A stretch of DNA of 64,000 nucleotides, from positions 248,001 to 312,000 of the forward strand of contig NZ_JABEKS010000003.1 in NCBI RefSeq assembly GCF_012985205.1, written 5' to 3'. The notes below the pieces were generated by a model, which did not search any database, was not told the DNA's origin, and saw only the letters and a program-made list of their open reading frames with translations. A program made the translations under genes and the position numbers. The stretch comes from Planctomonas sp. JC2975 (lineage in GTDB: Bacteria > Actinomycetota > Actinomycetes > Actinomycetales > Microbacteriaceae). Shown piece after piece: positions 9,615 to 42,588 of this stretch (positions within the stretch are counted from its first letter, which is position 1; each line of letters begins with the position of its first letter).

Positions 9615-10316
9615 TCAATAGCCGATGGTGAAGCGGCGCTGTATGTACCTCGGTATTTCCGCCTCATCGAGAACAGCGACCGCCAGGTCCTCGGCTGAAA
9701 TGCGGCTGCGCCCCTCGGCATCCGTTACAGGCTGGTCACCGCCGGACCGGTACCGGCCGGTGCGCTCACCCGGCGCAGTCTCGATGGCGGGACTGAGATA
9801 GGTCCACAGCCGGTTCGAGGTACGGAAGACGTTGAGCGCATCGCCATGACCGCGCATCGCCGCAGCGTAGTCCGGCGGCAAGCCGAAACTGTCGATCGCG
9901 GCATGGAGCAGTTCATCCGAGTCTTGAAACACCAGACCCGGTTCCATCTCGAGACTCGCCGCGCCGCCGACCACGATGAGACGGATGCGAGGAAAGTCGC
10001 ACAAGGCGATGGTCAGCGCGTGCGCCACGCGAACGTAGATGCCCGGGTCCGCGATGCCGAGCGCGACGGCCCGCTCCGGATCCGCGGCTGTGTTGCCCGG
10101 CCCGAATGCGCTGACCAGAAGGTCGAGGCCGGCAATGACCGCGCGAAGGTTCTCGCTGTCGGTGACGTCAACCTCCTTCCACTCGACGTTGTCCCGACCG
10201 TCGTGGATGGCCGAGGCGTCGCGGCTGTACGCAGTGACCCGATGTCCCCGGTCGACGGCCTCCGTGACGACGCGGCTGCCGATCATGCCCGTGCCGCCGA
10301 TGACTCCGATATGCAT
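9615..10316 (-). CDS. NAD(P)-binding oxidoreductase (atypical SDR, NmrA/BVR-B-like)
   Basis: 233 aa. The N-terminus is a Rossmann motif GVIGGTGMIGSRVV with TAYSRD, which favours NADPH. DLLVSAFGPG and RLIVVGGAASLE mark strands 4 and 5. These atypical SDR proteins lack the Tyr-Lys pair in the usual place and act as reductases or redox sensors. Divergent from a TetR gene across 126 bp, so it is probably the repressed target. Confidence 0.75.
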   Translation of the reverse strand: MHIGVIGGTGMIGSRVVTEAVDRGHRVTAYSRDASAIHDGRDNVEWKEVDVTDSENLRAVIAGLDLLVSAFGPGNTAADPERAVALGIADPGIYVRVAHALTIALCDFPRIRLIVVGGAASLEMEPGLVFQDSDELLHAAIDSFGLPPDYAAAMRGHGDALNVFRTSNRLWTYLSPAIETAPGERTGRYRSGGDQPVTDAEGRSRISAEDLAVAVLDEAEIPRYIQRRFTIGY

Positions 10317-10389
10317 GAGTTGCCCCGTTCTGGATTACCCGAGAGAACCGGTCGTATGGCTGACCCGGTGAGGTTACGCCGTGCACAAA

Positions 10390-10404
10390 CTATACGGTGT
10401 ACAG
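10390..10404. promoter_or_regulatory. Possible TetR operator
   Basis: CTATAC-GGT-GTACAG is a 15-bp near-palindrome (five of six arm bases pair) in the AT-rich divergent region between the NAD(P)-binding protein and the TetR gene. A CTATATAG self-complement follows 4 bp later. Tentative, supported mostly by position. Confidence 0.4.
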
Positions 10405-10442
10405 ATTCTATATAGCAAGCACCAATGTCTTAGACTTGTGTC

Positions 10443-11162
10443 GTGACAGCCACAGCGTCCCCGGATCGGCGCGCGCGTCTACGCGCGGCGACGACGGCCG
10501 AGATCAAGCAGGTTGCGCTCGCGCTGATGTCCGTCGGTGGACCGGATGCCATAACGCTGAGGGCGATCGCACGCGAGATGGGCATGACCCCGAACGCTAT
10601 CTACGGTTATTTCGCCACCCGCGACGACCTCGCGACCGAGCTGATCCGGGACGTTTCCACCGATCTGGCCGACGTGCTGGATGCCAGCTGGGCGCGCACG
10701 AAGCGCTCGTCACCCGCCGGACGGATCCGGGCGTGGGCGAACGCTTTCCGGGCGTGGTCGCTCGAGAACCGCGAGGGATTTCGACTTGTGTTCGGAGATC
10801 CGATCCCCGGGTACAAGGCGCCGGAAGGAGGACCCGCGCCCGATGCGATCCGACGCATCTGCCTTGGCCTCACGGGGCTGGCCGCCCTCGCCTGGCCCTA
10901 TGCCGCACCTGGCGCCGACACCGGCACTTTTCGGTGGTCCGATTTCGATCCGCTACTTTGCGATGAGGTTCGCACCGCTTTCCCCGAGCTGCCCCCGGCC
11001 GCGCTCGCGCTCGCTCTGCGCATCCGCTCCCGTCTCCATGGGCTCGTCACTCTGGAGGTGTACGGCCACCTGCAAGGGGTCACTCCCGCGCCCGAGAAGC
11101 TGTTCGACGCCGATGTCGCAGATCTCCTGAACACCCTGCGACTGGGACCTCAGGACTCTTGA
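10443..11162 (+). CDS. TetR-family regulator
   Basis: 239 aa from GTG 10443. The DNA-binding domain spans residues 15-65 (ITLRAIAREMGMTPNAIYGYFATRDDL pattern, with the recognition helix at TPNAIYGYF). The C-terminal half carries a WHG-type ligand domain with LENREGFRLVFGDP. No classic ribosome binding site is seen, so the transcript may be leaderless. It most likely represses the divergent oxidoreductase and itself. Confidence 0.85.
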   Translation: MTATASPDRRARLRAATTAEIKQVALALMSVGGPDAITLRAIAREMGMTPNAIYGYFATRDDLATELIRDVSTDLADVLDASWARTKRSSPAGRIRAWANAFRAWSLENREGFRLVFGDPIPGYKAPEGGPAPDAIRRICLGLTGLAALAWPYAAPGADTGTFRWSDFDPLLCDEVRTAFPELPPAALALALRIRSRLHGLVTLEVYGHLQGVTPAPEKLFDADVADLLNTLRLGPQDS

Positions 11163-11330
11163 CCGCTGGCTGACGGCGGATAAGAACCGGATGCGCACAC
11201 ATGTACTGCGCCGTCGCCGTGACGACCAAGGTCTTGCCGTGGTGAATCCCCGGGGGTGCGTTGGCCGAACCAAGAAGTGGTCTCAGGACGTGCGGCGTAC
11301 CGGCACATGGACCGGCGCACGACGTGCCGA

Positions 11331-16055: not shown

Positions 16056-18059
16056 CTAGGGAAGCAGGCCCGGCGCCTGGGCGATGAACGTGTCGAGCAC
16101 GCCGTCGGCCACCTTGACTTTGCCTTGCGGCCGAGTGGTGCCGGGGATGGTCGTGATCGCGCTCGCCTGGGATGCGAGCGCTGCTGCCCGATCGAAGTAC
16201 GGCTGGCCGGCACCGTGCTGTCCTGCCTTCAGACCGGCCATGGTGTTCTGGAACGCCTGACCCCACAGTGTCAAGGCATCCAGCCACGGCTTGGTCTCCG
16301 CGAGGAACGCCTGGTCCTTCACACCGGCGCGGATCTGCGCCGGCGCCGCCGCGAGCTCGTCGGCGTGGGCGCTCAGGGCACGAAGCGCTGCCTGTCGCTG
16401 CGCCGGGTCACCGCTTGACCAACCCGCCTTGAACGCGGCGATCCGTGCAGCCAGAACCGGAGCCTGCGGTTGCCAGTTCGTCGTGCCGAAGGTCGGTGCG
16501 AGGTGCTCGACATCGACCAGCGCGAGGAGCGCATCCGCCGTCTTCTGGTCGCCGCCCGCCATGTACTGCGCTGCAGCATGCATGTTCTGATCCGGGTTGT
16601 ACGCCTCGTCGTTCCAGGCGAACGACGCGCCACCGAAGAGGGCGAACTTGCTGGCTGCGGCTTGCTGCATCGGGTTGAGCACGATGCCGGCGAGCTGCGT
16701 GTGCAGTCCCGCTTCGCGATCCGCGTAAGGCGCCAGCAACAGTCGTCCGGTGGTCTGGCTGTAGTCGTCAACCGGATAGTTGTCCCAGAGGAAGACCTTG
16801 CGTCTCCACACATCCGATGCGGCCTGAGCGTCCGCCACGCTGATGGACGGAGGCACCACCGCAGTGCCGGTCCACTGCACGATGATCCGCGGGTCGAGCT
16901 GCTGGCGAAGGATGCTCTTGTACGGCGAGTCGGCCGTGTCGGAGTACTCCGTCGGCACCATCTCGAGCGGCGAGGTTCCAGCATGCTTGTCGAGGAAGTC
17001 GTGCTGAATGGTGTTCAGCAGGTCGGCCTGCGCCTGGCCGGCACTCGCCTGGCCCGGGTTGCCGTACTTCGTCTGGTCGGCCGTGCAGTTCCACTTCGTG
17101 TAGCTGATGTCGTCGAGCGAGATGTAGAAACTGCGACCGCCGATATCGTAGATCGACTGCAGCTTCGACTCCAGGGCGGCGATGTCGCTCGGGTCGCTGT
17201 AACAGATCGACAGTCCCGGAGCCAACGCGTACGTGAAGTGCACGTGGTGGGCTGTGGCCGATGTGATGAGCTGCTTCAGATCGGCGAGGTCTGCGGCGGG
17301 GTACGGATCGCGCCATTCGTCACGGAGGTACACGTCGTCCTTCGGCGTGTAGATGTAGGTGTTCGCCTTGACGTCGCCGTAGAACGCGAGCTGGTCGAGC
17401 CGGTCCGACTGCGACCAAGGCGCGCCGTAGAACCCCTCGATGGCTCCACGCAGAGGCATGCTGGGATAGTCGACGATGGTCGCGGCGGCGATGGTCTGCC
17501 TGCCGGGAGTGACGAGCTGGCGAAGGGTCTGCGCCGCGTAGTACACCCCGTCTCCGTCGTTCCCAGCGAGGACGACGCTCCCGCCATTGGCCCGAGCCTT
17601 GGAAGCCAGGGAGTATCCCTCGGCGGGGAGTGTGGACGGAACCGATCCGCCCGTGGATCGGAGCGCATCGGCGACGTCCTGGTCCTGGATCGACCCGACG
17701 ACGACGGTCAGCGCGGTCCGGTGCGCGGCGAACGCACCTGCGCTGATGTCGGACTGCACGATGCTGCGCACGCCCGCCGCGGTCAAGGCGGCCTTGATGA
17801 CGTCGATGGTCGAAGCATCGACCGACGACCCCGTCAGCACTTGCGCAGTGTGCGGCACGTGCAACGCCGCACCGGCTGCCGCGATCTGCTGCGGAGTGGG
17901 CGTGATCACCGGCAGGCCGCTCGACGTCGACGAGGCGGGAGCGGCGGCGGCGTGAGTCGCCGCGTTCGCCGGTGCGGAACTCAGCAATCCAGCACCGAGA
18001 ACCGCCGCGGCGACGACGCCGACGACGGGTACGGAGATCTTCCTTGATGGGTGGGGCAT
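16056..18059 (-). CDS. Secreted GH84 beta-N-acetylhexosaminidase
   Basis: 667 aa. Signal peptide about 1-33 (ending APANA), an N-terminal hexosaminidase-like alpha/beta domain (about 48-195, EGYSLASKA and GVYYAAQTLRQL), then the GH84 barrel from RGAIEGFYGAPWS (204-216). The adjacent catalytic aspartates are Asp316-Asp317 in YISLDDISY, as in NagJ-type enzymes using the substrate acetamido group. A helical C-terminal part follows (about 500-660). It should remove terminal beta-GlcNAc from glycans outside the cell. Divergent from a GH5 gene, with three CTAGACC-type sites and one shared 16-bp operator between them; adjacent GH85 and GH5 genes suggest N-glycan use. Confidence 0.9.
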   Translation of the reverse strand: MPHPSRKISVPVVGVVAAAVLGAGLLSSAPANAATHAAAAPASSTSSGLPVITPTPQQIAAAGAALHVPHTAQVLTGSSVDASTIDVIKAALTAAGVRSIVQSDISAGAFAAHRTALTVVVGSIQDQDVADALRSTGGSVPSTLPAEGYSLASKARANGGSVVLAGNDGDGVYYAAQTLRQLVTPGRQTIAAATIVDYPSMPLRGAIEGFYGAPWSQSDRLDQLAFYGDVKANTYIYTPKDDVYLRDEWRDPYPAADLADLKQLITSATAHHVHFTYALAPGLSICYSDPSDIAALESKLQSIYDIGGRSFYISLDDISYTKWNCTADQTKYGNPGQASAGQAQADLLNTIQHDFLDKHAGTSPLEMVPTEYSDTADSPYKSILRQQLDPRIIVQWTGTAVVPPSISVADAQAASDVWRRKVFLWDNYPVDDYSQTTGRLLLAPYADREAGLHTQLAGIVLNPMQQAAASKFALFGGASFAWNDEAYNPDQNMHAAAQYMAGGDQKTADALLALVDVEHLAPTFGTTNWQPQAPVLAARIAAFKAGWSSGDPAQRQAALRALSAHADELAAAPAQIRAGVKDQAFLAETKPWLDALTLWGQAFQNTMAGLKAGQHGAGQPYFDRAAALASQASAITTIPGTTRPQGKVKVADGVLDTFIAQAPGLLP

Positions 18060-18125
18060 GGCACCTCCAGGATGTGGACCAACGGAAAGAAGCGATTCGC
18101 ATGCTGGCCCCAGACTCCTGGGTCT

Positions 18126-18171
18126 CGGTCTAGCTCCCCCGATGCCTAGACCAACATCTATACCGGTCTAG
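18126..18171. promoter_or_regulatory. Three CTAGACC/GGTCTAG sites upstream of GH84
   Basis: CGGTCTAG (18126-18133), CCTAGACC (18145-18152) and CCGGTCTAG (18163-18171) alternate in orientation about 66-112 bp before the GH84 start codon. Spaced copies in both orientations suggest cooperative binding by a regulator, which the sequence does not identify. Confidence 0.5.
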
Positions 18172-18256
18172 TACTCACAGCAAACCGAAATCAACTGTTT
18201 GGTCCATTCATCCTGATTCGCCAGGAAAATGGATCACCATCCCAGGTTCCCGCCAT

Positions 18257-18272
18257 CCTAAATCGCTATAGT
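18257..18272. promoter_or_regulatory. Shared 16-bp operator, copy A
   Basis: CCTAAATCGCTATAGT matches copies B and C upstream of GH85 in the pattern CTAAA-N4-TATAG. It lies 54 bp before the GH5 start codon and 198 bp before the GH84 start codon. The near-palindromic shape centred on CG is like LacI-family operators; the adjacent LacI gene (19678-20733) is the best candidate binder. Confidence 0.6.
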
Positions 18273-18325
18273 AATCGAGTGATTCTCATCCCTGCTTCCC
18301 CCGTGCGCGACTGCGAGAGCGGCCG

Positions 18326-19630
18326 TTGACCGCGCCTCCTGCCGGGTCGCCGAGATTCGGCGTCAACTACACGCCCTCACGCGACTGGATGCACTCGTGG
18401 CTCTCCCTGTCGGTCGATGACGTGCGACGCGACTTCTCCCAGATCGCGGAGCTGGGGCTCGATCACGTGCGGGTCTTCCCGCTCTGGCCCTTGCTTCAGC
18501 CGAACCGGACGTTGATCCGCGAACGGGCGCTGGACGACGTGCGAACGGTCGTCGACACGGCCGCCGAGTTCGGGCTGGACGCCAGTGTCGACGTGATCCA
18601 GGGACACCTCTCCAGCTTCGACTTCGTGCCATCGTGGCTGGCGACGTGGCACAACCGCAACATGTTCACCGATCCGGATGCCGTGGCCGCCCAGCTCGCA
18701 CTCGTCTCGGCCCTTGGCGGCAGGCTGGCGGACGCCGGCAACTTCATCGGGCTCACTCTGGGAAACGAGGTGAACCAGTTCTCCGGCGCTCCGCATCCGT
18801 CTCCGTGGCCGATCGGCACGCCAGAGGCGGAAGCCTGGCTCACGGCGCTGCTCGGTGCGGCGGAGGCCGCGGCGCCCGGACGGCTCAACGTGCACGCGCC
18901 GTACGACGCCGTCTGGTACCTGGACGGGCATCCCTTCACGCCGACGCAGGCCAGCCGCATCGGTGACGCCTCCGTCGTGCACTCGTGGATCTTCAACGGC
19001 ACAGCGCAGAAGTACGGCGGCCGCTCGGTGGCAGCGGATCGGCACGCCGAGTACCTGATCGAACTCGCCCGTGCCTTCGCGCCCGGTCCGCACCGACCCG
19101 TCTGGCTTCAGGAAGTGGGGGCGCCGTCGAACTGTCTCGAAGAGTCGGACATCCCGGGTTTCGTGGAAGCGACGCTGCGCTCGGCCGCGCGATGCCAGGA
19201 TCTGTGGGGCATCACCTGGTGGTGCTCGCACGACGTCGACCGGCGTCTGGCGGACTTCCCCGACCTCGAGTATTCGCTGGGGCTGATCCGTTCCGATGGG
19301 TCGGTGAAGCCTTCGGGACGACGATTCAGCGAGGTCGCCGCAGAGCTGAGGAACGGCAGCGCCACCGCGACACGCTCGACGGGGATCGTCATCGACGTGG
19401 ACGACGATGAACTGCCCGTCCGCCGTGCTGCGCTGTCTCCCCGTGGTGCGGTGTTCCAGACCTGGGTCGATCTGTGCACGGACGGCGTCGATCCTGCACT
19501 GGTCACGAGCAAGGACGCCGCCGATCCGGCAGCCCTCGCAGCACGCGGGATCACGTCGCTCGTGCGGCCGGATCCCGCGCGTGCCACCGACGAGGCGTAT
19601 TCGTCGGCGAACACGGTCGTGGAGCCGTAG
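18326..19630 (+). CDS. GH5 beta-mannosidase-like enzyme (GH5_18 type)
   Basis: 434 aa from TTG 18326 (no other in-frame start nearby). No signal peptide, so cytoplasmic. Starts [15 protein letters not shown], with [16 protein letters not shown] and [10 protein letters not shown] motifs; acid/base Glu148 in LGNEVNQF and nucleophile Glu263 in LQEVGAPS mark clan GH-A. The pattern resembles GH5_18 enzymes such as the Bifidobacterium beta-mannosidase that splits Man-beta-1,4-GlcNAc from the N-glycan core; I recall that resemblance rather than having computed it. It fits the neighbouring GH85 and GH84 genes. Convergent with LacI, with a hairpin between. Confidence 0.75.
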
Positions 19631-19636
19631 CCCTCA

Positions 19637-19660
19637 CCGGGTCCATTCGGTACGACCCGG
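19637..19660. terminator. Bidirectional hairpin between GH5 and LacI genes
   Basis: CCGGGTC (19637-19643) and GACCCGG (19654-19660) pair around a 10-nt loop in the 47-bp gap between two convergent stop codons. Confidence 0.55.
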
Positions 19661-19677
19661 CTCGGGGTCGATTCAGG

Positions 19678-20733
19678 TCAGCTCGGGCCGGGGCGGCTCG
19701 GATCCGAACCCGCCCCCGGCCGCGCCGTGCTCTCGCGCACGCTGAGGCTCGGTACGGGGCCCCGCACGCCGGGAAGCGGCTCATCCGAGTCGAGTTGGGC
19801 GAGCAGAAGCGTCGCTGCCTTCTCGCCGAGGTCGAAGGTGTCCCTCGTCAGGCTGGTGATCGAGGGGTGCATCAGCTCGGAGATGATCGAGTCGTCGAAC
19901 GCCGCGACCGAAACCTCACCCGGCACCCGAATGCCCATCTCCTGCGTGACCCGCATGCCTGCGACGGCCATGACTTCGTTGTCGTAGACGATCGCGGTCG
20001 GGCGGTCCGTCCTACTGAGCACGCGTCGCGTCGCCGCGGCCGCTGCTGCGGGAGCGAAATCGGTCGCGAAGGTCTCAACGGTGATCCCGCGGCCGGCCAA
20101 CGACTCGAGCGTCGAAACGCGCATCCGGGTGTGCTGGAATTCGGCCGGGCCCGTCACGTAGGCGATGGCGCGATGCCCGAGCGCCGCCAGGTAGTCGAAC
20201 AACTCGTGCCCGGCTTGGTCGTCGTCGATCCACACGCTGGTGTGCCCATCGGGCGCGAGCGGGGTGCTCCCGATCAGGACGACCGGCAACCCGAGGTCTT
20301 CGAGCAGAGTCAGCCGTGGATCGTCGTCGCGCGGGTCGAGAAGGATGACGCCATCCACCTGGTGGGAGCCGCTCCACGACCGGTAGGCACCGAGCTCGTC
20401 ATCGAGGTCGTGCACGACCCGCAGGAGCATGGATGCGTTCACGGCGCTCAGCCCGGACTGGATGCCGGAGATCAGGTCGGCGAAGAACGCTTCGCTCCCG
20501 AGCGACCGCGCGGGCCGCTGCACGGCCAGACCGACGACGCCGAGCCTGGATCCGCTCAGCGCCCTGGCCGCCTGACTCGGCTGCCAGTTGTGCTCTCTCG
20601 CGACCGCGAGGATGCGCTCCCTGGTCTCCTTGCTCACACCTGGCCGGTCGTTGAGCGCGAATGACACCGCACCCGGTGAGACGCCGGCGATGCGAGCGAT
20701 CTCGGCGATCGTCATGCGCTTGCGAACGGCCAT
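19678..20733 (-). CDS. LacI-family regulator (glycan cluster)
   Basis: 351 aa from ATG 20733, with GAGGAG 11-12 bp upstream. Helix-turn-helix at residues 6-30 (TIAEIARIAGVSPGAVSFAL), hinge with QAARALSG, then a sugar-binding domain with VDGVILLDPR, AYVTGP and SVAAFDDS motifs. LacI regulators release DNA on binding a sugar. It sits between GH84/GH5 and GH85, whose promoters share the 16-bp operator, so it is the probable controller of this N-glycan regulon. Ligand unknown; a Man-GlcNAc-type product is an inference. Confidence 0.85.
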   Translation of the reverse strand: MAVRKRMTIAEIARIAGVSPGAVSFALNDRPGVSKETRERILAVAREHNWQPSQAARALSGSRLGVVGLAVQRPARSLGSEAFFADLISGIQSGLSAVNASMLLRVVHDLDDELGAYRSWSGSHQVDGVILLDPRDDDPRLTLLEDLGLPVVLIGSTPLAPDGHTSVWIDDDQAGHELFDYLAALGHRAIAYVTGPAEFQHTRMRVSTLESLAGRGITVETFATDFAPAAAAAATRRVLSRTDRPTAIVYDNEVMAVAGMRVTQEMGIRVPGEVSVAAFDDSIISELMHPSITSLTRDTFDLGEKAATLLLAQLDSDEPLPGVRGPVPSLSVRESTARPGAGSDPSRPGPS

Positions 20734-20900
20734 CGGATGCCACACTCCTCAACGGCAGAAGTGGTTGCCTGCGCAATGCGCACCTGCTTCCACGAAGATA
20801 CCTGCTGACCGATCAGGCGAGGTACAGGCGAAGCGGGGACATCGGCTCCCCGCTTCGCCTGTACCCGGATCTCACGCAGTGCTTCCGACCCGCAACCGCG

Positions 20901-23237
20901 TCACGACCATCGCAGCGCGACGGTCGACGGCGACGACTCAGTGCCGTCCGCGCTGATCGCGCTCACGCCGATGAGGGTGGTGGCCGCGGCTCCAGCCCTC
21001 TCCAGGCCGTCGATGTAGGCGCAGTCGCCGTTGACCCGGGCGAGCCAGCTGCGCGCGCTGCCGGACAGGCTGTACACGTCGTAGTACCAGGCATCCGGCA
21101 CGGCGTTCCAGGTCAGGCGCACCTGGGCGCTCTCGGAGACGATGGCACTCGCCTCGATGCGCAGGCCCCTGGGCGCACCGACGTGCTGAGGGCCGCCGGC
21201 GTACGCGCGGATCTCGCCGATCGCGTAGTCCACGTCGGCCGCCTGCGCCGCATCCGCTCTGATGACGCCCAGGGAGATAGACGTGATGGTGCCGCTCGAG
21301 TCGCGAGCGAGGCGACCGATGTCTGCCGTCGCCGTGCGCCAGCCCGAGCGGCCGAGCGGCCGGTCGTGCGTCGGGACATCCGCGAGCTGAAGCCCAAGGG
21401 CGGAGAGGCCCTTCGTGGAGTTCGCGATCGGAATCCAGGTGATCGTGGCGCCGTTCCCGTCGAACGTCAGACCGAGCAGGAGCGTGGCAGGTGCCGAGCC
21501 CGTTCGGTACGTGACGTCGATCTCCGGAGCCCGCCCGTGAACGTCGAGCGGCAGGTGCGTCTTGTACAACCGGAAGCCCTCCCCCTGCGCCGAGTCGAGG
21601 GTTCCCGAGAGCTTCAGCGATGAGCCACCGTCGTAGGCGATCGAGTCGTCGAATCGCGCCGCGAGCGAGCCGCTTGCTCCCGAATCGCCGATGGGCACGT
21701 TCCACCACTGCCAGGTCGGCAGGATGTCCTGCGCACCGATGTTGAACCACGGCGCATCGCTTACCTCGAGGCCGTCGGCGAAGAACGTGCCGCCGACTCC
21801 CGTGTTGAAGCGGGTCACGAACGGATACTCGCCGATGACCGACCGTTCTGCGATGAAGTCCGAGACACCGCAGGTCTGGGCTGCCGGGGATCCGGCGGCC
21901 GCCGGGTTGCCGGAGGCGCCGGACCAGAAGACCGACTCGCGCTGATAGACGCTCGCTGCGACATCCGCCAGAGACGTGGGATCGCTCGCCTTCGCGCGGC
22001 CGGTGAGGACCATCTGGTGCTCAGGATCGAACAGGGCGAGCGAAGCGACGGGTGCCGCACTGCCATCCGTCGGCACGACCAGGGGCGCGTGGACATTGAG
22101 CCCCGTGTTGTAGTTCGACGCGCTTCCCTCCATCTCGATCCCGAAGAAGACGGACTCGAATTCGTCGATTCCGAGCGTTTTCGCGTATGCGGTGCTCTGG
22201 TTCACCTGCGACGTGCTCCACCAGTAATTCAGGAAGATGGAGTCGCAGTCCCCGAACGCAGGGTCGATCCACGGCGCGTTCGCCGAGTCCAGCTGGTTCT
22301 GGTACGAGAGGCTGCCGGACGTCGTCAGCCCGTCGTACCACTGCAGGTCGAAGTGCGAGAGCTTCAGCTTCGCCGCGTACTGCTTGGCATAGCGGCAGAA
22401 GGCCGCGAGCTTGGCCACCTGATCGGTACTCGCCGACTGCTCGATGTTGAAGAAGTATCCGTCGAATCCGAAGTACTCTGCCGCCTCGACAAGGCGCTCG
22501 GCGACCGTGAAGTGGCCGTTCGCATCCTGAATCAGGATGTCGTGCGCGCTGTCTCCCGCCGCCGAATTCATGATCGGATGATCGATCACGCCGTACGAGA
22601 GCGCCCCGTTGCGGTGCGCCACATCGATGTACGCCGGATTCGGGATCAGCGGAACGGGCTCGTACCACGCGGACCACGCCGCCTGGATGTCGGTGAAGGC
22701 GTGCACGCGGGGGATGTGGACGTCCTGGCTGCGTCCGTACGGGAAGTACTGGAACTCGGCAGCGACGTCGTCGTGCTCGGCGGCGACGGTGTACTGACCG
22801 CCGCCGACGGAGTAGCGGTCCTGATCGCTGAGGAGGGGCTTGTAGTACTGGCAATAAGTCGCCAGTTTCGGCGTCGTGCTGAGGGCGGGCTGCGCTTGCA
22901 GAGCACTGGTGAGCGGGATTCTCTGCCGAATCGGAACGGCGGACTTGAAGTACTTCGCATCGCCGTCGGCGGCCGGATTCCACGCGATGAACGCGTCGAC
23001 CGCGTCGCTGGACTGCAGCGTCCACGCAGGGAACCCCTGCGCGGAGCCGGGTGCCCTGGGGATCCCCGAGGCTGCGGCCGACGGCGCTGCGGCCCCGGTT
23101 CTCCCGACGGGCCCGAAGGCCGGTGAGGCGCTGGCGACCGCGGGAACGGCGAGCGCCGCCGCAACGCCTCCCACGGCGCCCCCGAGCAGGGACCGCCGGG
23201 TCACGCCGGAACTGATGGACGACTTTCGGTCTGCCAT
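20901..23237 (-). CDS. Tat-exported GH85 endo-beta-N-acetylglucosaminidase
   Basis: 778 aa from ATG 23237 behind GGAGGT; a longer frame to 23342 lacks signal features before it. Residues 1-38 form a Tat signal (VTRRSLLGGAVGG). The GH85 barrel covers about 85-440, with FQYFPYGRSQDVHIPRVHAF, then Asn264 and Glu266 in FDGYFFNIEQ, the pair used in acetamido-assisted cleavage of the chitobiose core of N-glycans. C-terminal beta-sandwich and fibronectin-like domains follow (about 500-778). It should cut whole N-glycans from glycoproteins, leaving one GlcNAc on the protein. Two shared operators lie 131 and 210 bp upstream. Confidence 0.9.
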   Translation of the reverse strand: MADRKSSISSGVTRRSLLGGAVGGVAAALAVPAVASASPAFGPVGRTGAAAPSAAASGIPRAPGSAQGFPAWTLQSSDAVDAFIAWNPAADGDAKYFKSAVPIRQRIPLTSALQAQPALSTTPKLATYCQYYKPLLSDQDRYSVGGGQYTVAAEHDDVAAEFQYFPYGRSQDVHIPRVHAFTDIQAAWSAWYEPVPLIPNPAYIDVAHRNGALSYGVIDHPIMNSAAGDSAHDILIQDANGHFTVAERLVEAAEYFGFDGYFFNIEQSASTDQVAKLAAFCRYAKQYAAKLKLSHFDLQWYDGLTTSGSLSYQNQLDSANAPWIDPAFGDCDSIFLNYWWSTSQVNQSTAYAKTLGIDEFESVFFGIEMEGSASNYNTGLNVHAPLVVPTDGSAAPVASLALFDPEHQMVLTGRAKASDPTSLADVAASVYQRESVFWSGASGNPAAAGSPAAQTCGVSDFIAERSVIGEYPFVTRFNTGVGGTFFADGLEVSDAPWFNIGAQDILPTWQWWNVPIGDSGASGSLAARFDDSIAYDGGSSLKLSGTLDSAQGEGFRLYKTHLPLDVHGRAPEIDVTYRTGSAPATLLLGLTFDGNGATITWIPIANSTKGLSALGLQLADVPTHDRPLGRSGWRTATADIGRLARDSSGTITSISLGVIRADAAQAADVDYAIGEIRAYAGGPQHVGAPRGLRIEASAIVSESAQVRLTWNAVPDAWYYDVYSLSGSARSWLARVNGDCAYIDGLERAGAAATTLIGVSAISADGTESSPSTVALRWS

Positions 23238-23367
23238 GGCGACAGCACCTCCACTATGAGATGGGACGATCGGCTCGTTCAGCGGCGGCAGAGCTTGAAT
23301 TCCCGTGAAGACCGGGGTTCCGTGCCTGATCCGATCCGACACTCCGACCGCTCGCGGCGAGCCCGAA

Positions 23368-23383
23368 ACTATATCGCTTTAGT
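23368..23383. promoter_or_regulatory. Shared 16-bp operator, copy B
   Basis: ACTATATCGCTTTAGT is the best palindrome of the three (ACTA arms, CG centre) and lies 131 bp before the GH85 start. Its complement aligns with copy C at ACTAAAG-N3-TATAG. Confidence 0.65.
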
Positions 23384-23446
23384 TCAGTTCGCAGACTAGC
23401 GCCGCCTGAAACGCGGCCGCAAGCGTCGGTTCGGATGGATCGAGGC

Positions 23447-23462
23447 ACTAAAGGTCTATAGC
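23447..23462. promoter_or_regulatory. Shared 16-bp operator, copy C
   Basis: ACTAAAGGTCTATAGC, 79 bp from copy B (start to start, about seven and a half helical turns), could allow looping or cooperative binding by a LacI-type repressor. It also lies 212 bp before the acyl-CoA dehydrogenase gene. Confidence 0.6.
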
Positions 23463-23567
23463 GCTGGGATCGGATCGACGGCGATCGACGCACGTGCATC
23501 CGAAACGGTCGACATCGACGTGCTCTCGACGACCACGGCGACGAGCCGCGGGCGCGCCGATCCAACA

Positions 23568-23580
23568 CGAAACGCTTTCG
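23568..23580. promoter_or_regulatory. LacI-like palindrome before the acyl-CoA dehydrogenase gene
   Basis: CGAAA-CGC-TTTCG has 5-bp arms around a CG-containing centre, a common LacI operator layout. It lies 94 bp before the start codon. It does not match the 16-bp shared operator. Confidence 0.4.
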
Positions 23581-23600
23581 AACCTTCCGTTGGAGCGCCA

Positions 23601-23627
23601 GAGGCGGATGATCGAGACATCCGCCTC
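23601..23627. promoter_or_regulatory. Leader stem-loop before the acyl-CoA dehydrogenase gene
   Basis: GAGGCGGATG (23601-23610) and CATCCGCCTC (23618-23627) form a perfect 10-bp stem with a 7-nt loop, 46 bp before the start codon. There is no rightward gene upstream that needs a terminator, so it may be an operator or a transcript-end or attenuating structure. Confidence 0.45.
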
Positions 23628-23673
23628 ACAAGGGCGCACCACGGTAGTAAGCCGCACCGACAAGGAGCTCAGC

Positions 23674-24828
23674 ATGACCGCCACGTACTCACTCAGCGAT
23701 GAAGAGAAGGAATTCGCGCACATGGTGCGCCAATTCGCCGACGACGTCGTCGCGCCGAAGGCCTACGAGGCCGACCGCACGAAGACGCTTCCTCTCGACG
23801 TCGTACGGCAGATGGGGGAACTGGGCTTGTTCGGCCTCCCGTTCCCCGAGGAGTACGGCGGGCAAGGCGGAGACTACTTCGCGCTCTGCCTCGCGATCGA
23901 AGCCCTCGCACGAGTCGACCAGTCCATCGCCATCACACTCGAGGCCGGCATCGGGCTCGGCGCGATGCCCGTCTTCCTCTTCGGCACCGAGGAGCAGAAG
24001 CAGGAGCTGCTGCCCGAACTCCTCGCCGGCCACGCGCTCGCCGGTTTCGGTCTCACCGAGCCGGGGGCCGGATCCGACGCTGGCGCGACTCGCACCACCG
24101 CACGCTTGCAGGACGGCGAATGGGTGCTGAACGGCGCGAAGCAGTTCATCACCAACTCGGGGACCGCCATCACCCGGTTCGTGACCATCACGGCGGTCAC
24201 CGGCGAAACGGATGGACGCAAGGAGATCTCGACGATCATCGTGCCCAACGGCACCCCGGGTTTCACCGTGGAGCCTGGCTACGACAAGGTCGGCTGGCAC
24301 GCATCCGACACGCATCCGCTGACATTCGTGGACGCGCGCGTGCCGGAGGCGAACCTGCTCGGGCAGCGCGGTCGCGGGTACGCGAACTTCCTCCACATCC
24401 TCGACGAGGGGCGCATCGCCATCGCGGCCCTGTCGACCGGTGCAGCAGAAGGCTGCCTGGAAGCCGCTGTCGACTACGCCAAGACGAGGCTCGTGTTCGG
24501 CGAGCCCCTCGCTTCCCGACAGAACACGCAGTTCGTCCTCGCCCGCATGCACCTGCGCGTGCACAACGCGCGGCTCGCCTGGCACTACGCCGCCCGACTG
24601 AGGGATGCAGGCCAATCGTTCAAGACCGCGGCGGCCATCGCGAAGCTCACGGCCAGCGACGCCGCCATGGACAACGCTCGCGACGCGACCCAGATCTTCG
24701 GCGGCAACGGGTTCATGAACGAGTACCCGGTCGCACGTCACTTCAGGGACTCGAAGATCCTCGAGATCGGTGAGGGGACCAACGAGGTCCAGTTGCTCGT
24801 CATCGCGCGAGCCCTGGGCATCGCGTAG
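23674..24828 (+). CDS. Acyl-CoA dehydrogenase
   Basis: 384 aa from ATG 23674 behind AAGGAG. Typical FAD flavoenzyme: N-terminal helical domain, middle beta domain with GFGLTEPGAGSDAGA (about residues 125-140) and FITNSG, C-terminal helical domain with QIFGGNGFMNEYPV and the catalytic Glu in EIGEGTNEVQ near residue 371. It oxidises an acyl-CoA to the enoyl-CoA, probably a short or branched chain. No electron-transfer or thiolase genes are adjacent, and its link to the glycan genes is not evident. Confidence 0.9.
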   Translation: MTATYSLSDEEKEFAHMVRQFADDVVAPKAYEADRTKTLPLDVVRQMGELGLFGLPFPEEYGGQGGDYFALCLAIEALARVDQSIAITLEAGIGLGAMPVFLFGTEEQKQELLPELLAGHALAGFGLTEPGAGSDAGATRTTARLQDGEWVLNGAKQFITNSGTAITRFVTITAVTGETDGRKEISTIIVPNGTPGFTVEPGYDKVGWHASDTHPLTFVDARVPEANLLGQRGRGYANFLHILDEGRIAIAALSTGAAEGCLEAAVDYAKTRLVFGEPLASRQNTQFVLARMHLRVHNARLAWHYAARLRDAGQSFKTAAAIAKLTASDAAMDNARDATQIFGGNGFMNEYPVARHFRDSKILEIGEGTNEVQLLVIARALGIA

Positions 24829-24961
24829 GCAGCGCCGGCGAGATGCCCGGCCGAGGGTCGCCTCTGCACCGGCCAGGGCGGCCATGCGTGCGACCCCGAA
24901 CCGGATCGTACGGACGGCCTCTGGGCCGCTACCGTGGGGAGACAATTCCTGAGGAGGCCCG

Positions 24962-25993
24962 ATGACGAAGCGCGCCAGCATGAGCGATGTCGCTCGCGCG
25001 GCAGGCGTCTCCCTGACGACGGCTTCGCGCGCGCTAGGAGGCGTCGGGCGGGTCTCACCGGAAACCCGCGCCAAGGTCATCGAGACGGCCGAGCGCCTCC
25101 AGTTCCAGCCCGACATGATCGCACGATCGTTCGTCACCGGCCGCAGCTTCATCGTCGGTGTGCTTGCCGAAGCCGCGTCCGGTCGATTCAGCATGCCACT
25201 CCTTCTCGGAGCGACCGATTACCTCGGTCGCGAGAACATCGCGGCCGTGACGCTCGATGCACAAGGTCGCCCGCGCATGCTGACCGAGTACCTGAAGCGA
25301 CTCCGTTCGCGCCGCATCGACGGCGTGCTGGTGGTCGGAGACGACCCCAACCGTGCAAGCCTGGTCCTCTCCGAAGACTTCTCGGTTCCCGTCGTCTTCG
25401 CCTCGTCTTCCGCGACACCCGAGACGGACTTCGTCGTGGCTCCGGACAACCGCGGGGCCGGGCGAGCCGCCGCGGAGCATCTGATCGGCCTCGGCCGACG
25501 CTCGATCGCGCACGTCACGGCGGCCGTGCACGAGCCAGCGGTGGACGCCCGCGCGGCAGGCTTCGCGGAGGGGATGGCGGCTGCCGGGATGTCGACCGCG
25601 CTGGGCGGGCCCCTCTACGGCAGTTACAAGCAGCGTTGGGGCACCGACGCCGCTGAACGCATCATCGCAAGCGGCGAACCAGTAGATGCCATCTTTGCGG
25701 CCAACGACGAGATCGCCATCGGCCTGTTCGCGACGTTCCACCGGCACGGCATCCGCGTTCCCGACGACATCGCGATAGTCGGATACGACAACCGGCTCGC
25801 CGGCGTCGATCGTCCCGACCACCCTCTGACCACCTTCGACCCTGAGCTCGGTGCGGTGGGTGCGCGTGCTGCGGAACGCCTGCTGGCGGCCATCGCCGGG
25901 GACAGCGAGCCCGGGGTGGAGTACGTGCAGCCCCGGTTCATCGAGGGCCGGTCGACCGTCGGCCCGACGATCGACCCGTACGACGTGCTCTGA
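24962..25993 (+). CDS. LacI-family regulator (GH130 side)
   Basis: 343 aa from ATG 24962 behind GAGGAGG. Helix-turn-helix at residues 7-30 (SMSDVARAAGVSLTTASRAL), hinge, and a periplasmic-binding-like effector domain with RIDGVLVVGDD, IAHVTAAVHEP and VGYDNRLAGVD. Convergent with the GH130 gene (98 bp apart). A GCAATCGATTGC palindrome in the GH130/GH-A divergent promoter is a plausible operator for it. Confidence 0.85.
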   Translation: MTKRASMSDVARAAGVSLTTASRALGGVGRVSPETRAKVIETAERLQFQPDMIARSFVTGRSFIVGVLAEAASGRFSMPLLLGATDYLGRENIAAVTLDAQGRPRMLTEYLKRLRSRRIDGVLVVGDDPNRASLVLSEDFSVPVVFASSSATPETDFVVAPDNRGAGRAAAEHLIGLGRRSIAHVTAAVHEPAVDARAAGFAEGMAAAGMSTALGGPLYGSYKQRWGTDAAERIIASGEPVDAIFAANDEIAIGLFATFHRHGIRVPDDIAIVGYDNRLAGVDRPDHPLTTFDPELGAVGARAAERLLAAIAGDSEPGVEYVQPRFIEGRSTVGPTIDPYDVL

Positions 25994-26091
25994 CGGCGGG
26001 TGCGTCCTGCGGAGGGTGCCGAGCCTGCTCGGTGGCGTCCGCTCTGGAGTCAGCGACGGACGACAGTCGAGCATCGGGATGCGGGCAGTCG

Positions 26092-27084
26092 TCACCCCAC
26101 CGAGCTGCGGGCGGGGCGGAACGTCGCGACACCGACGGTCGTGTCGCACTGCCCGTAATAGGCGAGCCAGGCGTCGCGGAACCAGACCAGTCCTTCGACG
26201 AAGGTCACATTCGGGGACAAACCGCCCCTGTCTTCCTTCGCGGTCGGCTCGAGCCAGGGCTCCAGCAACGCGGCAACGGGCACGGTGGGCCGGGCGGGAT
26301 CGAACAGCACCTGTCCGCTCGAGTAGTAGAATCCGCCCTCCGGGGGATGGATGGCGCTGTTGTGCACGAGCAAGATGTGGCCGGTCCGCGTGATCAGCGG
26401 CTGCGGTCCGGTCTCGACCAGGCCGCCCATGAACGTGCCGGGTCGCGGGACGAGCACCGGCTCCGAATCGGCGACCCGCCAGTGCAACAGGTCTTCGGAC
26501 TCCGCGAGATAGACGTTGCCCTCCCCGACGTACATGAGATAGCGGCCGTCGATAGGAGTCTCGAGGATGACACCGCCTTTGCTCCACTCGTCGACCGGCG
26601 GCTGTCGCCTGCCGCCGAACGTGTCGAGCCCGGGCAGGATCGGGCCGTGCTTGGTCCAGGTGCGCAGGTCGGTCGAGGTCGCCAGGCACAGGCGCGCCGT
26701 CGTCCGATCCCAACCGGTGTACGTGAGGTAGAACGTCTCGTCGATCATCACGACCCGCGGATCCTCACAGCCGAAGCGCTCGTACGCATGCTCGGGCACG
26801 AGCACCGGCTCCGCATCCCGCTCGAAGTTCAGACCGTCGTCGCTCTGCGCGTAACCGATCGATGAGACGAGGTCGTCTGAGTGCGCCCGATAGAGCAACA
26901 CGACCTGGTCGTCGCGCACGATCGCTGCCGGGTTGTAGACGTTGGTGGACTCCCACGCGCGCGGCCCCGGCCGAAGGACCGGGTTGGCCGACGAGGGGGT
27001 GAACGGTCCGAACGGATAGTCGATGGGTGGATGGGTGGCAGACCTGGTCGGGTCGAGGGACGGGGTGGTGTCGCGGGCGGTCAT
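26092..27084 (-). CDS. GH130 family glycoside phosphorylase or hydrolase
   Basis: 330 aa, cytoplasmic five-bladed propeller. FGCEDPR at residues 104-110 holds the catalytic Asp108, the hallmark of GH130; other family parts are NPVLRPGPRAWES near 34, VYNPAA near 49 and YTGWDRTTARL near 122. GH130 enzymes phosphorolyse or hydrolyse beta-1,4 or beta-1,2 mannosides, including Man-GlcNAc from N-glycans. Which subfamily this is cannot be told by eye. GGAAGGA precedes the ATG. Divergent from the secreted GH-A glycosidase and convergent with LacI. Confidence 0.8.
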   Translation of the reverse strand: MTARDTTPSLDPTRSATHPPIDYPFGPFTPSSANPVLRPGPRAWESTNVYNPAAIVRDDQVVLLYRAHSDDLVSSIGYAQSDDGLNFERDAEPVLVPEHAYERFGCEDPRVVMIDETFYLTYTGWDRTTARLCLATSTDLRTWTKHGPILPGLDTFGGRRQPPVDEWSKGGVILETPIDGRYLMYVGEGNVYLAESEDLLHWRVADSEPVLVPRPGTFMGGLVETGPQPLITRTGHILLVHNSAIHPPEGGFYYSSGQVLFDPARPTVPVAALLEPWLEPTAKEDRGGLSPNVTFVEGLVWFRDAWLAYYGQCDTTVGVATFRPARSSVG

Positions 27085-27217: not shown

Positions 27218-27229
27218 GCGCAATCGATT
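27218..27229. promoter_or_regulatory. LacI operator in the GH130/GH-A divergent promoter
   Basis: GCAATCGATTGC is a perfect 12-bp palindrome with the central CG typical of LacI/GalR sites. It is 134 bp before the GH130 start and 165 bp before the rightward glycosidase start. Confidence 0.65.
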
Positions 27230-27393: not shown

Positions 27394-29715
27394 GTGAAGA
27401 TTCGAACGGTATCCATCGCAACCGCGCTCGTTCTCCTCGGCGCCGTTGTCTTGCCGACCAGTGCGCAAGCAATTGCGCACTCGACGGACGGAAGTAGCGC
27501 GGCCCAATCGCGCGCGTCCGCTCCCGCAGTGTGTCCGGCCGTGACGCCCAACATCACCTCCGACAACGTGACTGATTACCGACTCGATTCCAATCTGGTG
27601 AGCGCCGGCCACTGGTCGTACGAGGCGATCGACGGAAACACGGTCGGGCTGCTCCAGAAGGGCGGCACCGGTGCTTTCGCCGCCGACGAATGGGCGGCCG
27701 CACTCGACAAGCCGGAGCACGCGTGGTTCGTGAAGGCCGACGGCGAGATCGGCACCGACTACCGCCAGATCGCCGAGACCTACACCGTCCCGGATGAAGC
27801 CGACGGCAAGAACGTGCACATCACGGGCAGCTTCACGTCGCCGGGCGGACGGTTCCGTGTACTCCTCTCGCACGACGGAGACGCGACCTCGATCGGGAGC
27901 CCGAGCGCGTTCACGCAGCTGTACACGTACACCGGGACAGCGACCACGTTCGACCTCAACGTCACGGCGGCCAAGGGGGACGACCTTCTGTTCGTGGACG
28001 ACGGCGTGTCGACCTGGTGGGTGCCCGGTCAGCTGAAGGCCACCGTCACAAGCGAGCTCGCGACACCGCCCGCCGTGGTCTCCGCCACCCCCGGCCCCGG
28101 TTCGATCGACGTCGGCGACTCCGTCAAGCTCGTCAGCGCGACGGCCGGCGCCTGCATCGCGTACACGACCGACGGCAGCGATCCGACGACCTCGAAGACC
28201 GCAGCGGCGTACGGCAAGCCGATCACGATCACGGCCGACACGGACATCAAGGCCGTCGCCATCGCCAAGAACGGCACGCCAAGCGCGGTGACCGACCTCC
28301 CGTTCGTGTTGAACGAGCCGTTCCGGGCCTTCGCCGGCGCCAACCAGGCCGGCATCGACGGGCTCGTCTCGAATCTCCAGTGGTCGCGCGAGGACGTCAG
28401 CTGGAACGGCATCGAACCCGCGAAGGGACAGATCGATCAGGCAGCACTCGCCGAGTACGTGCGCCAGTTCACCGAGGCCAAGGCGCACGGGGAGACCATC
28501 TTGCCGGTGCTCGACTACACAGCCGATTGGGCCGCCAACCGCACCGGCTACTCCTTCGACTTCCACGGCCAGACCTACGTCTACGGCCCCGTGCTTTCGA
28601 CCCAGAACGGCCAGTTCACGCAGGTGCTGACGACCAAGGACGCGAAGGGGAAGGTGATCTCATCGCAGACGGTGCAGACCGACATCAGCCGCACCCCACC
28701 GCAGGACCCGGCCGACTTTGCGAACTTCGCGAAGATCGTGGTCAAGGCACTCCGGCCGCTGGGCATCAGCTACTACCAGGTCTGGAACGAGGCCTACCCG
28801 GGCTCCGGCTTCTGGGACGGTGGCATGGACCAGTACATGCAGTACATCCAGCTCCCGGCCGCCAACGCCATCCATGACGCAGGCGGCAAGGTCGTGTACG
28901 GCGGATGGATCTGCGGCGCTCCCCTCAGCGAGTTCATCGCACTGCTCGACAAGTGGAACGCCTGGAAGAGCATCGACGTCTACGACATGCACTACATGCC
29001 GATCGGGACCATGCAGACGATCTACGCTGCCGCCCAGAAGCGGGGGATCAAGAACCCCTCCGTGTGGCAGACCGAAATCGGGTTCACGACCGAGGACAAG
29101 TTCTTCGCCGACATCTACCCGCGCGTATTCGAGTGGGCATTGTCGAAGGGAGGCACGAACCTCGACCAGTTCAAGCTGCTGTACTTCGCCAACTGGACGC
29201 CGAACGATCCATCGGCGTTCGGATACAACCGCACCATCTACAGCGGCTCCGACTTGACCACGAAGGGCAGAACACTGGTGACCCTGGCAAGCCTGCTGCG
29301 GGGCACGAAGGCCGAGCCTTACACGGACTTCACGACTTCACCTGGCCTCAAGCCGGAGATGAACGAGGCGCTCTCGACCGCCAATGGCTTCCGGCTGGAC
29401 GGCAACCGCGTCGTTCTCGCCATCGACCTGAAGCGGCAGAACCAGGCCGACATCTTCGAAGACCAGAACACGGGTGACACCATCCACCTGAACTTCGGTA
29501 ATCCGACGATCACGGTCACGCTTCGCAACGTCACCGACGTGAAGTCCCTCGACCGGGTCGACCTGTTCGGCAACAAGACCCCGCTCACGTGGAAGAGTAC
29601 GGGCCGGAACACCATCCAGGTGCAGGTGCCCATCATCGACGCCGACCCGACTGTGCACGACCTCAACCAGACCGAGAACGAGGACGTGTTCTACCTCTCG
29701 CTTCAGGAGCGCTGA
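27394..29715 (+). CDS. Secreted clan GH-A glycosidase
   Basis: 773 aa from GTG 27394 (GGAG seven bases upstream). Signal peptide about 1-26 (LPTSAQA), an N-terminal beta-sandwich (about 50-215), a chitobiase-like Ig segment with YTTDGSDPTTS near 255, then a TIM barrel (about 300-640) with acid/base Glu466 in VWNEAYPG and nucleophile Glu561 in WQTEIGF, 95 residues apart as in GH39/GH5-like enzymes. A C-terminal beta domain ends the protein. The family is closest to GH39-like by motif, but I am not certain. Its position opposite GH130 suggests it releases a substrate for cytoplasmic use. Confidence 0.75.
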   Translation: MKIRTVSIATALVLLGAVVLPTSAQAIAHSTDGSSAAQSRASAPAVCPAVTPNITSDNVTDYRLDSNLVSAGHWSYEAIDGNTVGLLQKGGTGAFAADEWAAALDKPEHAWFVKADGEIGTDYRQIAETYTVPDEADGKNVHITGSFTSPGGRFRVLLSHDGDATSIGSPSAFTQLYTYTGTATTFDLNVTAAKGDDLLFVDDGVSTWWVPGQLKATVTSELATPPAVVSATPGPGSIDVGDSVKLVSATAGACIAYTTDGSDPTTSKTAAAYGKPITITADTDIKAVAIAKNGTPSAVTDLPFVLNEPFRAFAGANQAGIDGLVSNLQWSREDVSWNGIEPAKGQIDQAALAEYVRQFTEAKAHGETILPVLDYTADWAANRTGYSFDFHGQTYVYGPVLSTQNGQFTQVLTTKDAKGKVISSQTVQTDISRTPPQDPADFANFAKIVVKALRPLGISYYQVWNEAYPGSGFWDGGMDQYMQYIQLPAANAIHDAGGKVVYGGWICGAPLSEFIALLDKWNAWKSIDVYDMHYMPIGTMQTIYAAAQKRGIKNPSVWQTEIGFTTEDKFFADIYPRVFEWALSKGGTNLDQFKLLYFANWTPNDPSAFGYNRTIYSGSDLTTKGRTLVTLASLLRGTKAEPYTDFTTSPGLKPEMNEALSTANGFRLDGNRVVLAIDLKRQNQADIFEDQNTGDTIHLNFGNPTITVTLRNVTDVKSLDRVDLFGNKTPLTWKSTGRNTIQVQVPIIDADPTVHDLNQTENEDVFYLSLQER

Positions 29716-33875: not shown

Positions 33876-34904
33876 CTACCGCACCGCTCTGGCCTGGTCG
33901 GCCGGCGAGACCGGGGTGACGACACCGGATCCCACGACACGCGCCGGCAGCGGATGGTGGCAGGCCACCTGCCGGCCGTCGATCGGTCGGAGCAACGGTC
34001 TTTCCGTGTGGCAGATTCCGGTTGCTGCCGGGCAGCGCGGGTGGAACGGGCATCCGGCTGGGCGGTTCGCCGGACTCGGAACGTCCCCGCTGAGCACGAT
34101 CCGTTCACGTTCCTTCCCGCCGGCGCCATCCACCTGGGGGATCGCCGACAGCAGCGCCGCCGTGTACGGGTGAGCCGGAGACGCGTACAGCTCCTCGGCA
34201 TCCGCGAGTTCGACCAGGTCGCCGAGGTACATGACGGCGACCCGGTCGGACACATGTTCCACGACGCCGAGATCGTGAGCGATGAACACGTAGGTGAGTC
34301 CGTACTCGTCCTGCAGATCCGCCAGCAGGTTCAGCACCTGAGCCTGGACCGACACATCGAGCGCCGAGACCGGCTCATCGGCGACGAGCACGCTCGGGTT
34401 GAGGGCAAGGGCCCGTGCAATGCCGATGCGCTGACGCTGCCCCCCTGAGAACTCGTGCGGATAGCGGCCGGCCATGCTGGGGTCGAATCCGACGCGTTCG
34501 AGCAGGAATGCGACTCGGTCGTCGATGCCGCGTCGATCCGCGGTTCTGTGGATGCGCAGCGGTTCGGCGACGATGTCCTCGACCCGCATACGGGGATTCA
34601 GCGACGAGTACGGATCCTGGAACACCATCTGCAGCCTGCGGCGCACCGGACGGAGCGCTCGGCGGCTCAGCCGTGAGATGTCGCGGCCCTCGAACTCGAC
34701 GGAGCCGGAGGTGACATCGATGAGCCGCGTGAGGCACTGGCCGAACGTGGACTTGCCGCACCCGGACTCTCCGACGATGCCGAGCGTCTCGCCGGCCTTC
34801 ACCTCGAGGCTCACTCCGTTGACGGCGGTGACCGCACCCTTCTGCTTGCCGCGAAGCGCGTAGGTCTTCACCACGTTCTCCGCCTTGAGCACGACCTCGC
34901 TCAC
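33876..34904 (-). CDS. ABC importer ATPase 2 (OppF/DppF type)
   Basis: 342 aa from the GTG at 34904, which overlaps the preceding stop as GTGA. Walker [10 protein letters not shown] (residues 43-51), signature FSGGQRQR, Walker B VLVADEP, switch His in [12 protein letters not shown]. The C-terminal oligopeptide-type domain has [14 protein letters not shown], which binds a metal or cluster in family-5 importers. Works as a heterodimer with the ATPase encoded just upstream. Neighbouring GH27 suggests oligosaccharide rather than peptide import. Confidence 0.9.
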
Positions 34905-42344: not shown

Positions 42345-42358
42345 TGTGTACGTTCACA
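42345..42358. promoter_or_regulatory. GalR-like operator before GH27
   Basis: TGTGTACGTTCACA: a near-perfect 14-bp palindrome centred on CG (one mismatched pair), a shape known for LacI/GalR operators of actinobacterial sugar genes. It lies 65 bp before the GH27 start. A second partial site, AAACGTTCAC, is at 42468-42478. Confidence 0.65.
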
Positions 42359-42588
42359 CGGTAGGTGTCAAGAGAAAGGTTGTCCAGAAGGATTTGCGCT
42401 CGATTCGATCGAAAAGTCCGCATATCATGGGGAAATCGAACGGACTCGCCAGGCTCTGGCAGGAAAGGAAACGTTCACTTGATGAGAACGAGGCAACGAC
42501 TAGCCGGAACACGACGCCCGGGTCGGACACGATTCGCTGCGCCGGCATCGCCACTCGTCTTGCACCTTTCCGCCACGATGGGGCATCG

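Follow-up and report, generated by a model that had tools for sequence, protein, structure and literature searches.

In the genome of Planctomonas sp. JC2975 (Microbacteriaceae; 4.36 Mb, 11 contigs, completeness 100), a stretch of 64,000 nucleotides (contig NZ_JABEKS010000003.1, positions 248,001 to 312,000; hereafter the window, whose numbering is used throughout) contains a group of glycoside hydrolase (GH) and LacI-type regulator genes at 16056-27084 that very probably serves to cut sugar chains off glycoproteins and to digest their core. This locus is likely to be a reduced unit for N-glycan use, in which the genes for GH85, GH84, and GH5_18 enzymes would be controlled by one regulator, LacI1, through three copies of the candidate operator CTAWANCGNTWTAG, with the nearby GH130 gene standing apart. 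For soil actinobacteria the general N-glycan pathway has been published before, and the locus belongs to a known actinobacterial kind; what is new is the operator, together with the split layout. Genes in the window were called from codon-position GC content and identified by Pfam, NCBIfam, and PDB matches, and signal peptides were judged by eye only.

These matches recovered GH84, GH5, GH85, GH130, and both lacI genes where the original prediction, made from the bare sequence, had placed them. GH85 is hit by Pfam models PF03644 (E 1e-58) and GH85_C (E 5e-9) and by the GH85 structures 2w91 (endoglucosaminidase D) and 3fha, and both residues of its N299-x-E301 motif, presumably the catalytic pair, are kept in 29 of 29 aligned relatives. 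The sequence TRRSLL after the ATG at 23237 resembles a twin-arginine translocation (Tat) signal, in agreement with the expected Tat export. GH84 matches the Pfam NAGidase model (PF07555, E 3e-106) and the NagJ and BT_4395 structures, retains the Asp pair D316-D317, which we take to be catalytic and which is kept in four of four relatives, and begins with an N-terminus like that of a Sec signal peptide, as expected for a secreted enzyme. The GH5 enzyme had been described as cytoplasmic and similar to beta-mannosidases acting on mannose-beta-1,4-N-acetylglucosamine (Man-beta-1,4-GlcNAc), and the sequence evidence agrees with both points. Pfam returned nothing for this protein at E 0.001 (Cellulase at E 0.04); its PDB matches are 9y4v (3e-200), 7lr7 (ScGH5_18, 8e-151), BlGH5_18 (3e-142), and the exo-beta-1,4-mannosidase 6gvb (2e-103), the solved GH5_18 enzymes among them being named for Streptomyces and Bifidobacterium. 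E148 and E263, presumably the acid/base and nucleophile glutamates, are invariant in nine of nine aligned sequences, and no signal peptide was seen. GH5_18 is thus predicted to act on Man-beta-1,4-GlcNAc.

The enzymes differ in how often they are found among relatives. Strong GH5_18 matches (E <1e-100) occur in 8 of 150 genomes of the family; at E 0.001 the count rises to 25, the other 17 being weak and partial. The Pfam model detected GH85 in 1 of 150 family genomes and 5 of 198 order genomes, and a search with the protein as query detected it in one of five genomes of the genus, the host's own gene being included each time; these counts describe genome samples, and a named Microbacterium record (L055) carries a GH85 as well. 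A search of genome contigs for relatives of the host GH85 itself confirmed none, and a tblastn search of plasmid records returned four, all below 60% identity.

The company kept by GH5_18 in other actinobacteria supports its assignment to an N-glycan module. An alignment search yielded at least 579 confirmed GH5_18 loci, of which the best 80, all from named actinobacteria and totalling 1.54 Mb, were kept; they are biased toward close relatives, and some stop at contig ends. Neighbours were assigned by tblastn (E 1e-6, at least 100 residues). GH38 was found near GH5_18 in 72 of the 80 loci, a probable LacI1 orthologue in 71, and an ATP-binding cassette (ABC) permease in 70, the last label being generic because identity to the host permease is only 27-33%. 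GH85 is present in 29 loci and GH84 in four. The loci come from Microbacterium, Arthrobacter, Streptomyces, Kitasatospora, Nonomuraea, Actinoplanes, Isoptericola, and Cellulomonas, among other genera, and where a named Microbacterium or Arthrobacter locus has a counterpart of LacI1, the two proteins are 54-64% identical. Given this conserved gene company, the GH5_18 module is a common actinobacterial one with LacI1 as its usual neighbour. GH84 is an occasional partner, since three Nonomuraea loci (L085, L086, L089) have a GH84 with about 48% identity to that of the host; identity to a Streptacidiphilus GH84 is 42%. Microbacterium sp. MAH-37 (L055) combines importer, GH5_18, LacI1, GH38, GH85, and three operator sites. 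Humibacter albus DSM 18994 (NZ_ATXT01000014.1, L053) has a GH5_18 matching that of the host at 69% (10001-11275 of a locus of about 20-21 kb), around which neither the operator nor any match to LacI1, GH38, or GH85 was found. As a separate observation, an exact GCAACCTAGGTTGC palindrome stands upstream of this GH5_18 gene.

Actinobacterial N-glycan core loci were reportedly described by Higgins et al. in 2021. The present loci resemble them in combining GH5_18 with LacI, GH38, and an ABC importer in several genera, with GH85 in the proportion given above. The host differs in that GH38 and importer lie outside the locus and outside operator control and in that GH84 is divergent from GH5_18; of the GH5_18, GH38, ABC importer, and LacI that mark such a locus, only GH5_18 and LacI1 are in place. 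The Cutibacterium acnes locus is given as GH38/GH5_18/GH20 in PMC6160142; it shares with the host a cytoplasmic GH5_18 beta-mannosidase for the N-glycan core, whereas the host neighbours are GH85 and GH84 instead of GH38 and GH20.

The most useful new result is the candidate operator, to which LacI1 is predicted to bind. Intergenic stretches were read for palindromes, and the pattern CTAWANCGNTWTAG, derived from the window together with one Microbacterium site, was then tested. At up to 1 mismatch it occurs 139 times, spread over 69 of the 80 GH5_18 loci, with a single one of the 139 sites inside a query-matched gene (the only genes mapped), as against none in the 80 loci for the reversed pattern and one site in 0.76 Mb of base-shuffled copies of half the loci. 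The form CTAAAGCGCTTTAG was found 83 times within 2 mismatches, while 57 palindromes made by shuffling the half-sites gave a median of 0 and at most 17. A scan of the whole host genome for CTAWANCGNTWTAG (up to 1 mismatch) returned three places (control, 0), all in this locus: two between GH84 and GH5_18 and one before GH85. None of 100 dinucleotide shuffles of the window held any site, and a weaker copy with 2 mismatches lies at 23448. Among the relatives, a site is found within 400 bp before 57 of 71 LacI1 genes, 33 of 72 GH38 genes, and all four matched solute-binding protein genes; none of the 70 permease genes has one, the permease presumably lying downstream of another importer gene in most cases. 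The site is present in 64 of 71 loci with LacI1 vs. 5 of 9 without (Fisher p 0.018), where eight of the nine are cut by contig ends to 4.9 to 13 kb and the ninth is that of Humibacter albus. This distribution suggests a LacI1 regulon without GH130, in which LacI1 would regulate GH84, GH5_18, and GH85. A literature search with four exact forms of the palindrome gave no match, although a report in differing notation would escape it.

The original prediction had pointed out that no alpha-mannosidase or dedicated importer is adjacent, which agrees with the window genes scanned (part of the open reading frames), the nearest transporter being of the oligopeptide type (33876-39603). Its suspicion that the set may be incomplete holds for the locus and less so for the genome: of the families it had proposed to look for elsewhere, GH92 and GH125 were not found in the host genome, and GH38 is present twice, on contig C1. 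Each of these GH38 genes adjoins genes for an ABC importer, with a solute-binding protein and permeases (some identified by similarity only), and for a ROK regulator. The GH38 at C1:1.45 Mb shares 59-60% identity with GH38s adjoining GH5_18 in three loci (L039-L041), and in a tree of 72 sequences, consisting of the GH38s of GH5_18 loci and the two own genes, it nests with these and with further GH5_18-linked GH38s of Microbacteriaceae and two Arthrobacter (Shimodaira-Hasegawa-like approximate likelihood ratio test 98). Either gene could serve the pathway, and the one at C1:1.45 Mb appears the better candidate.

From the observed gene identities, conserved residues, gene company, operator distribution, and presence of GH38, we infer a scheme that covers substrate, binding of LacI1 to its sites, inducer, import route, and export. 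LacI1 would occupy the three CTAWANCGNTWTAG operators and keep GH84, GH5_18, and GH85 repressed until a sugar released by N-glycan breakdown is present. GH84 would take off accessible N-acetylglucosamine (GlcNAc), either from the antennae or from the stub, and the freed glycan would enter through an ABC transporter encoded elsewhere. Inside the cell, a GH38 encoded on another contig may strip the alpha-mannose, leaving the last Man-beta-1,4-GlcNAc to be cleaved by GH5_18 in the cytoplasm.

Several observations weigh against this reading. The host GH85 shares only 26-36% identity with its counterparts in GH5_18 loci. Among the relatives, CTAWANCGNTWTAG lies within 400 bp before none of 4 GH84, 8 of 29 GH85, and 30 of 80 GH5_18 genes, and 11 of the 80 loci have no site at all. 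Neither importer nor GH38 was found in the regulon, and the 19.9-kb stretches around both C1 GH38 genes lack CTAWANCGNTWTAG even at 2 mismatches, unlike their relatives; import and alpha-mannose removal, if part of the pathway, are therefore under other control. The solute-binding proteins beside the two GH38s gave no match (E 1e-8) to those of L034-L041, and the one in L042 matches only 4 of the 80 loci, at 24-26% identity. The GH38 tree left out GH38s of other roles, and the tree tool flags both own sequences (L042, L043) as long branches of unsure placement; joins with L043 may be false according to its warning. This second GH38 falls outside the clade of the first and branches from an unresolved fork next to the GH38 of L037, itself part of a GH5_18 locus.

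Such gaps could reflect a remnant, that is, an ancestral locus that lost its importer and GH38 and whose remaining genes serve other substrates containing GlcNAc or mannose or are decaying. The lack of these matches and of a site around GH5_18 in Humibacter albus (LacI1, GH38, GH85) and the occurrence of GH85 in a single genome of the genus fit such a history, yet the host has kept its expected catalytic residues and three operators intact and all three sites in the genome sit before genes of the locus, so that we regard decay or a change of substrate as quite unlikely. A wider statement is about evenly balanced in our judgement: CTAWANCGNTWTAG and its LacI may constitute an undescribed N-glycan regulon that spans orders of the Actinomycetes, from Microbacterium to Streptomyces and Actinoplanes, and that contracted in this host to release and the last bond (GH85, GH84, GH5_18), import and alpha-mannose removal having passed to genes elsewhere beside ROK regulators.

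The original prediction of an N-glycan core set under LacI control had included GH130, and on this point it was not supported. The protein matches Pfam GH130 at E 1e-49, and its best NCBIfam models are those for beta-1,2-mannosidase BT3780 and beta-1,2-mannobiose phosphorylase, both below cut-off; it should be regarded as a relative and not as a certified BT3780 equivalog, because it reaches 205 bits against NF058598 (BT3780), whose cut-off is 550. Among PDB entries it matches 5a7v (5e-53, 40% identity in the alignment), which we take to be BT3780, the ten residues checked agreeing with the published numbering. Nine of these ten are kept (N51, R66, E107, D108, E188, E224, Y254, F295, and D314). 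E188 and E224 align with BT3780 E227 and E268, and two glutamates replace the phosphate-binding residues in hydrolases of the BT3780 type, as described in PMC4599007. The host protein differs from this type in having no signal peptide visible by eye and in carrying Arg159 at the position of Lys199, the residue said to set beta-1,2 specificity (PMC4599007); this pairing comes from a MAFFT alignment in which a lysine follows ten residues on and gap placement is uncertain.

A role for GH130 in the N-glycan core, alongside GH5_18, would have it act on Man-beta-1,4-GlcNAc. GH130 is one of three families that include enzymes for this bond (PMC10154615), and the arginine in place of the specificity lysine would leave room for such an activity. 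A best match to GH130_1/2 members together with phosphate-binding residues, as expected of a GH130_2 Man-beta-1,4-GlcNAc phosphorylase, was not obtained. The closest models and structures are of the beta-1,2 kind, both hydrolase glutamates are present, BT3780 itself has no activity on Man-beta-1,4-GlcNAc in Table 2 of PMC4599007, and GH5_18 already supplies the step; this role was rejected as very improbable. Because BT3780 is inactive on this bond and the CTAWANCGNTWTAG operator is missing before the GH130 gene, we place it outside the N-glycan unit, probably in a separate one acting on beta-1,2-mannosides.

A broader alternative would make the whole stretch a system for fungal mannoproteins, with GH85 freeing N-linked mannan, GH130 removing beta-1,2-mannose caps, and GH5_18 finishing the core. 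Less than 3 kb separates GH130 from GH85, and GH130 is nearest to the kind of enzyme that acts on Candida mannan and is of a type rare in the family: matches at E 0.001 occur in 48 of 150 family genomes, none of them close, and the best non-self match by E-value has 37% identity over residues 22-206 only. Plasmid records searched by tblastn gave 44 matches, all below 60% identity, the best shown being from Hymenobacter, Spirosoma, Bacteroides, and Parabacteroides. The alternative is nonetheless improbable, considering that GH130 lacks the operator of the unit and is separated from it by a dehydrogenase gene, that tblastn found it in 0 of the 80 GH5_18 loci, that it has no visible signal peptide, and that the genome search returned neither GH92 nor GH125.

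GH130 may have a regulator of its own. LacI2 shares only 24-31% identity with LacI1-like regulators from seven family loci, and from its position one might guess that it controls GH130 together with the divergent gene at 27394-29715, the three forming their own unit. A candidate LacI2 site, GCAATCGATTGC, has 1 match, at 27220; it is a weak operator candidate, because 16 of 100 shuffles also hold one. The 27394-29715 product is a secreted protein of 773 residues with a CHB_HEX_C/Fn3_assoc domain and, by eye, glycosidase-like motifs in its C-terminal part. For this part, no family match and a weak PDB match to a beta-glucosidase (E 0.002) were obtained, and a single-sequence structure prediction had a mean predicted local distance difference test score of 40 and was not used for a fold search. 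The plasmid-record search with this gene gave one record, labelled E. coli, at 26% identity.

The layout of the locus is summarised in the table. The stretch 16056-27084 is not one operon, because its genes alternate in strand and GH130 is set apart by the acyl-CoA dehydrogenase gene and LacI2; gene order, strands, and operator distribution led us to reject one operon or one regulon across it. The acyl-CoA dehydrogenase is apparently unrelated to the N-glycan genes. Promoter and terminator scans were uninformative (0 promoters called vs. a mean of 0.8 in shuffles; 1 terminator vs. 3.7). The hairpin at 20822-20864 (80 bases folding at -54 kcal/mol, no T run, not among the called terminators) may limit read-through from GH85 into LacI1.

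Table. Features of the N-glycan locus and its surroundings in the window
Feature	Position	Strand	Basis or remark
GH84 beta-N-acetylglucosaminidase	16056..18059	-	Pfam PF07555, structures
Candidate LacI1 operator CTATACCGGTCTAG	18158..18171		1 mismatch to CTAWANCGNTWTAG; 99 bp before GH84
Candidate LacI1 operator CTAAATCGCTATAG	18258..18271		exact; 55 bp before GH5_18
GH5_18 predicted exo-beta-1,4-mannosidase	18326..19630	+	PDB matches
LacI1	19678..20745	-	Pfam LacI and Peripla_BP_3
Perfect 18-bp inverted repeat, 7-base loop	20822..20864		between GH85 stop and LacI1 start
GH85 endo-beta-N-acetylglucosaminidase	20901..23342	-	Pfam; open reading frame from GTG 23342, likelier ATG 23237
Candidate LacI1 operator CTATATCGCTTTAG	23369..23382		exact; 132 bp before GH85 ATG, 27 bp before GTG
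Acyl-CoA dehydrogenase	23494..24828	+	Pfam, NCBIfam
LacI2	24962..25993	+	Pfam
GH130, predicted beta-1,2-mannosidase	26092..27084	-	NCBIfam, PDB
Secreted protein with CHB_HEX_C domain	27394..29715	+	divergent from GH130

Elsewhere in the window, the oligopeptide-type ABC transporter genes (33876-36887) and a binding protein gene (37915-39603) are followed by genes for an alpha-galactosidase that carries Melibiase domains (39665-42280) and for a further LacI, the third (42346-43656); together they may form a unit for galactoside uptake. A protein of 887 residues with lamin-tail domains and a phytase-like domain is encoded at 3147-5810.

Soil bacteria that digest glycoproteins recycle the N-glycans of fungi, plants, and animals. 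For the annotation of such organisms, a GH130 gene beside GH85 is by itself no evidence for cleavage of the N-glycan core. The genome-wide count of CTAWANCGNTWTAG suggests that three promoter sites at one locus can make up a whole N-glycan regulon and, if the operator is real, the N-glycan genes of an actinobacterium would be predictable from sequence alone.

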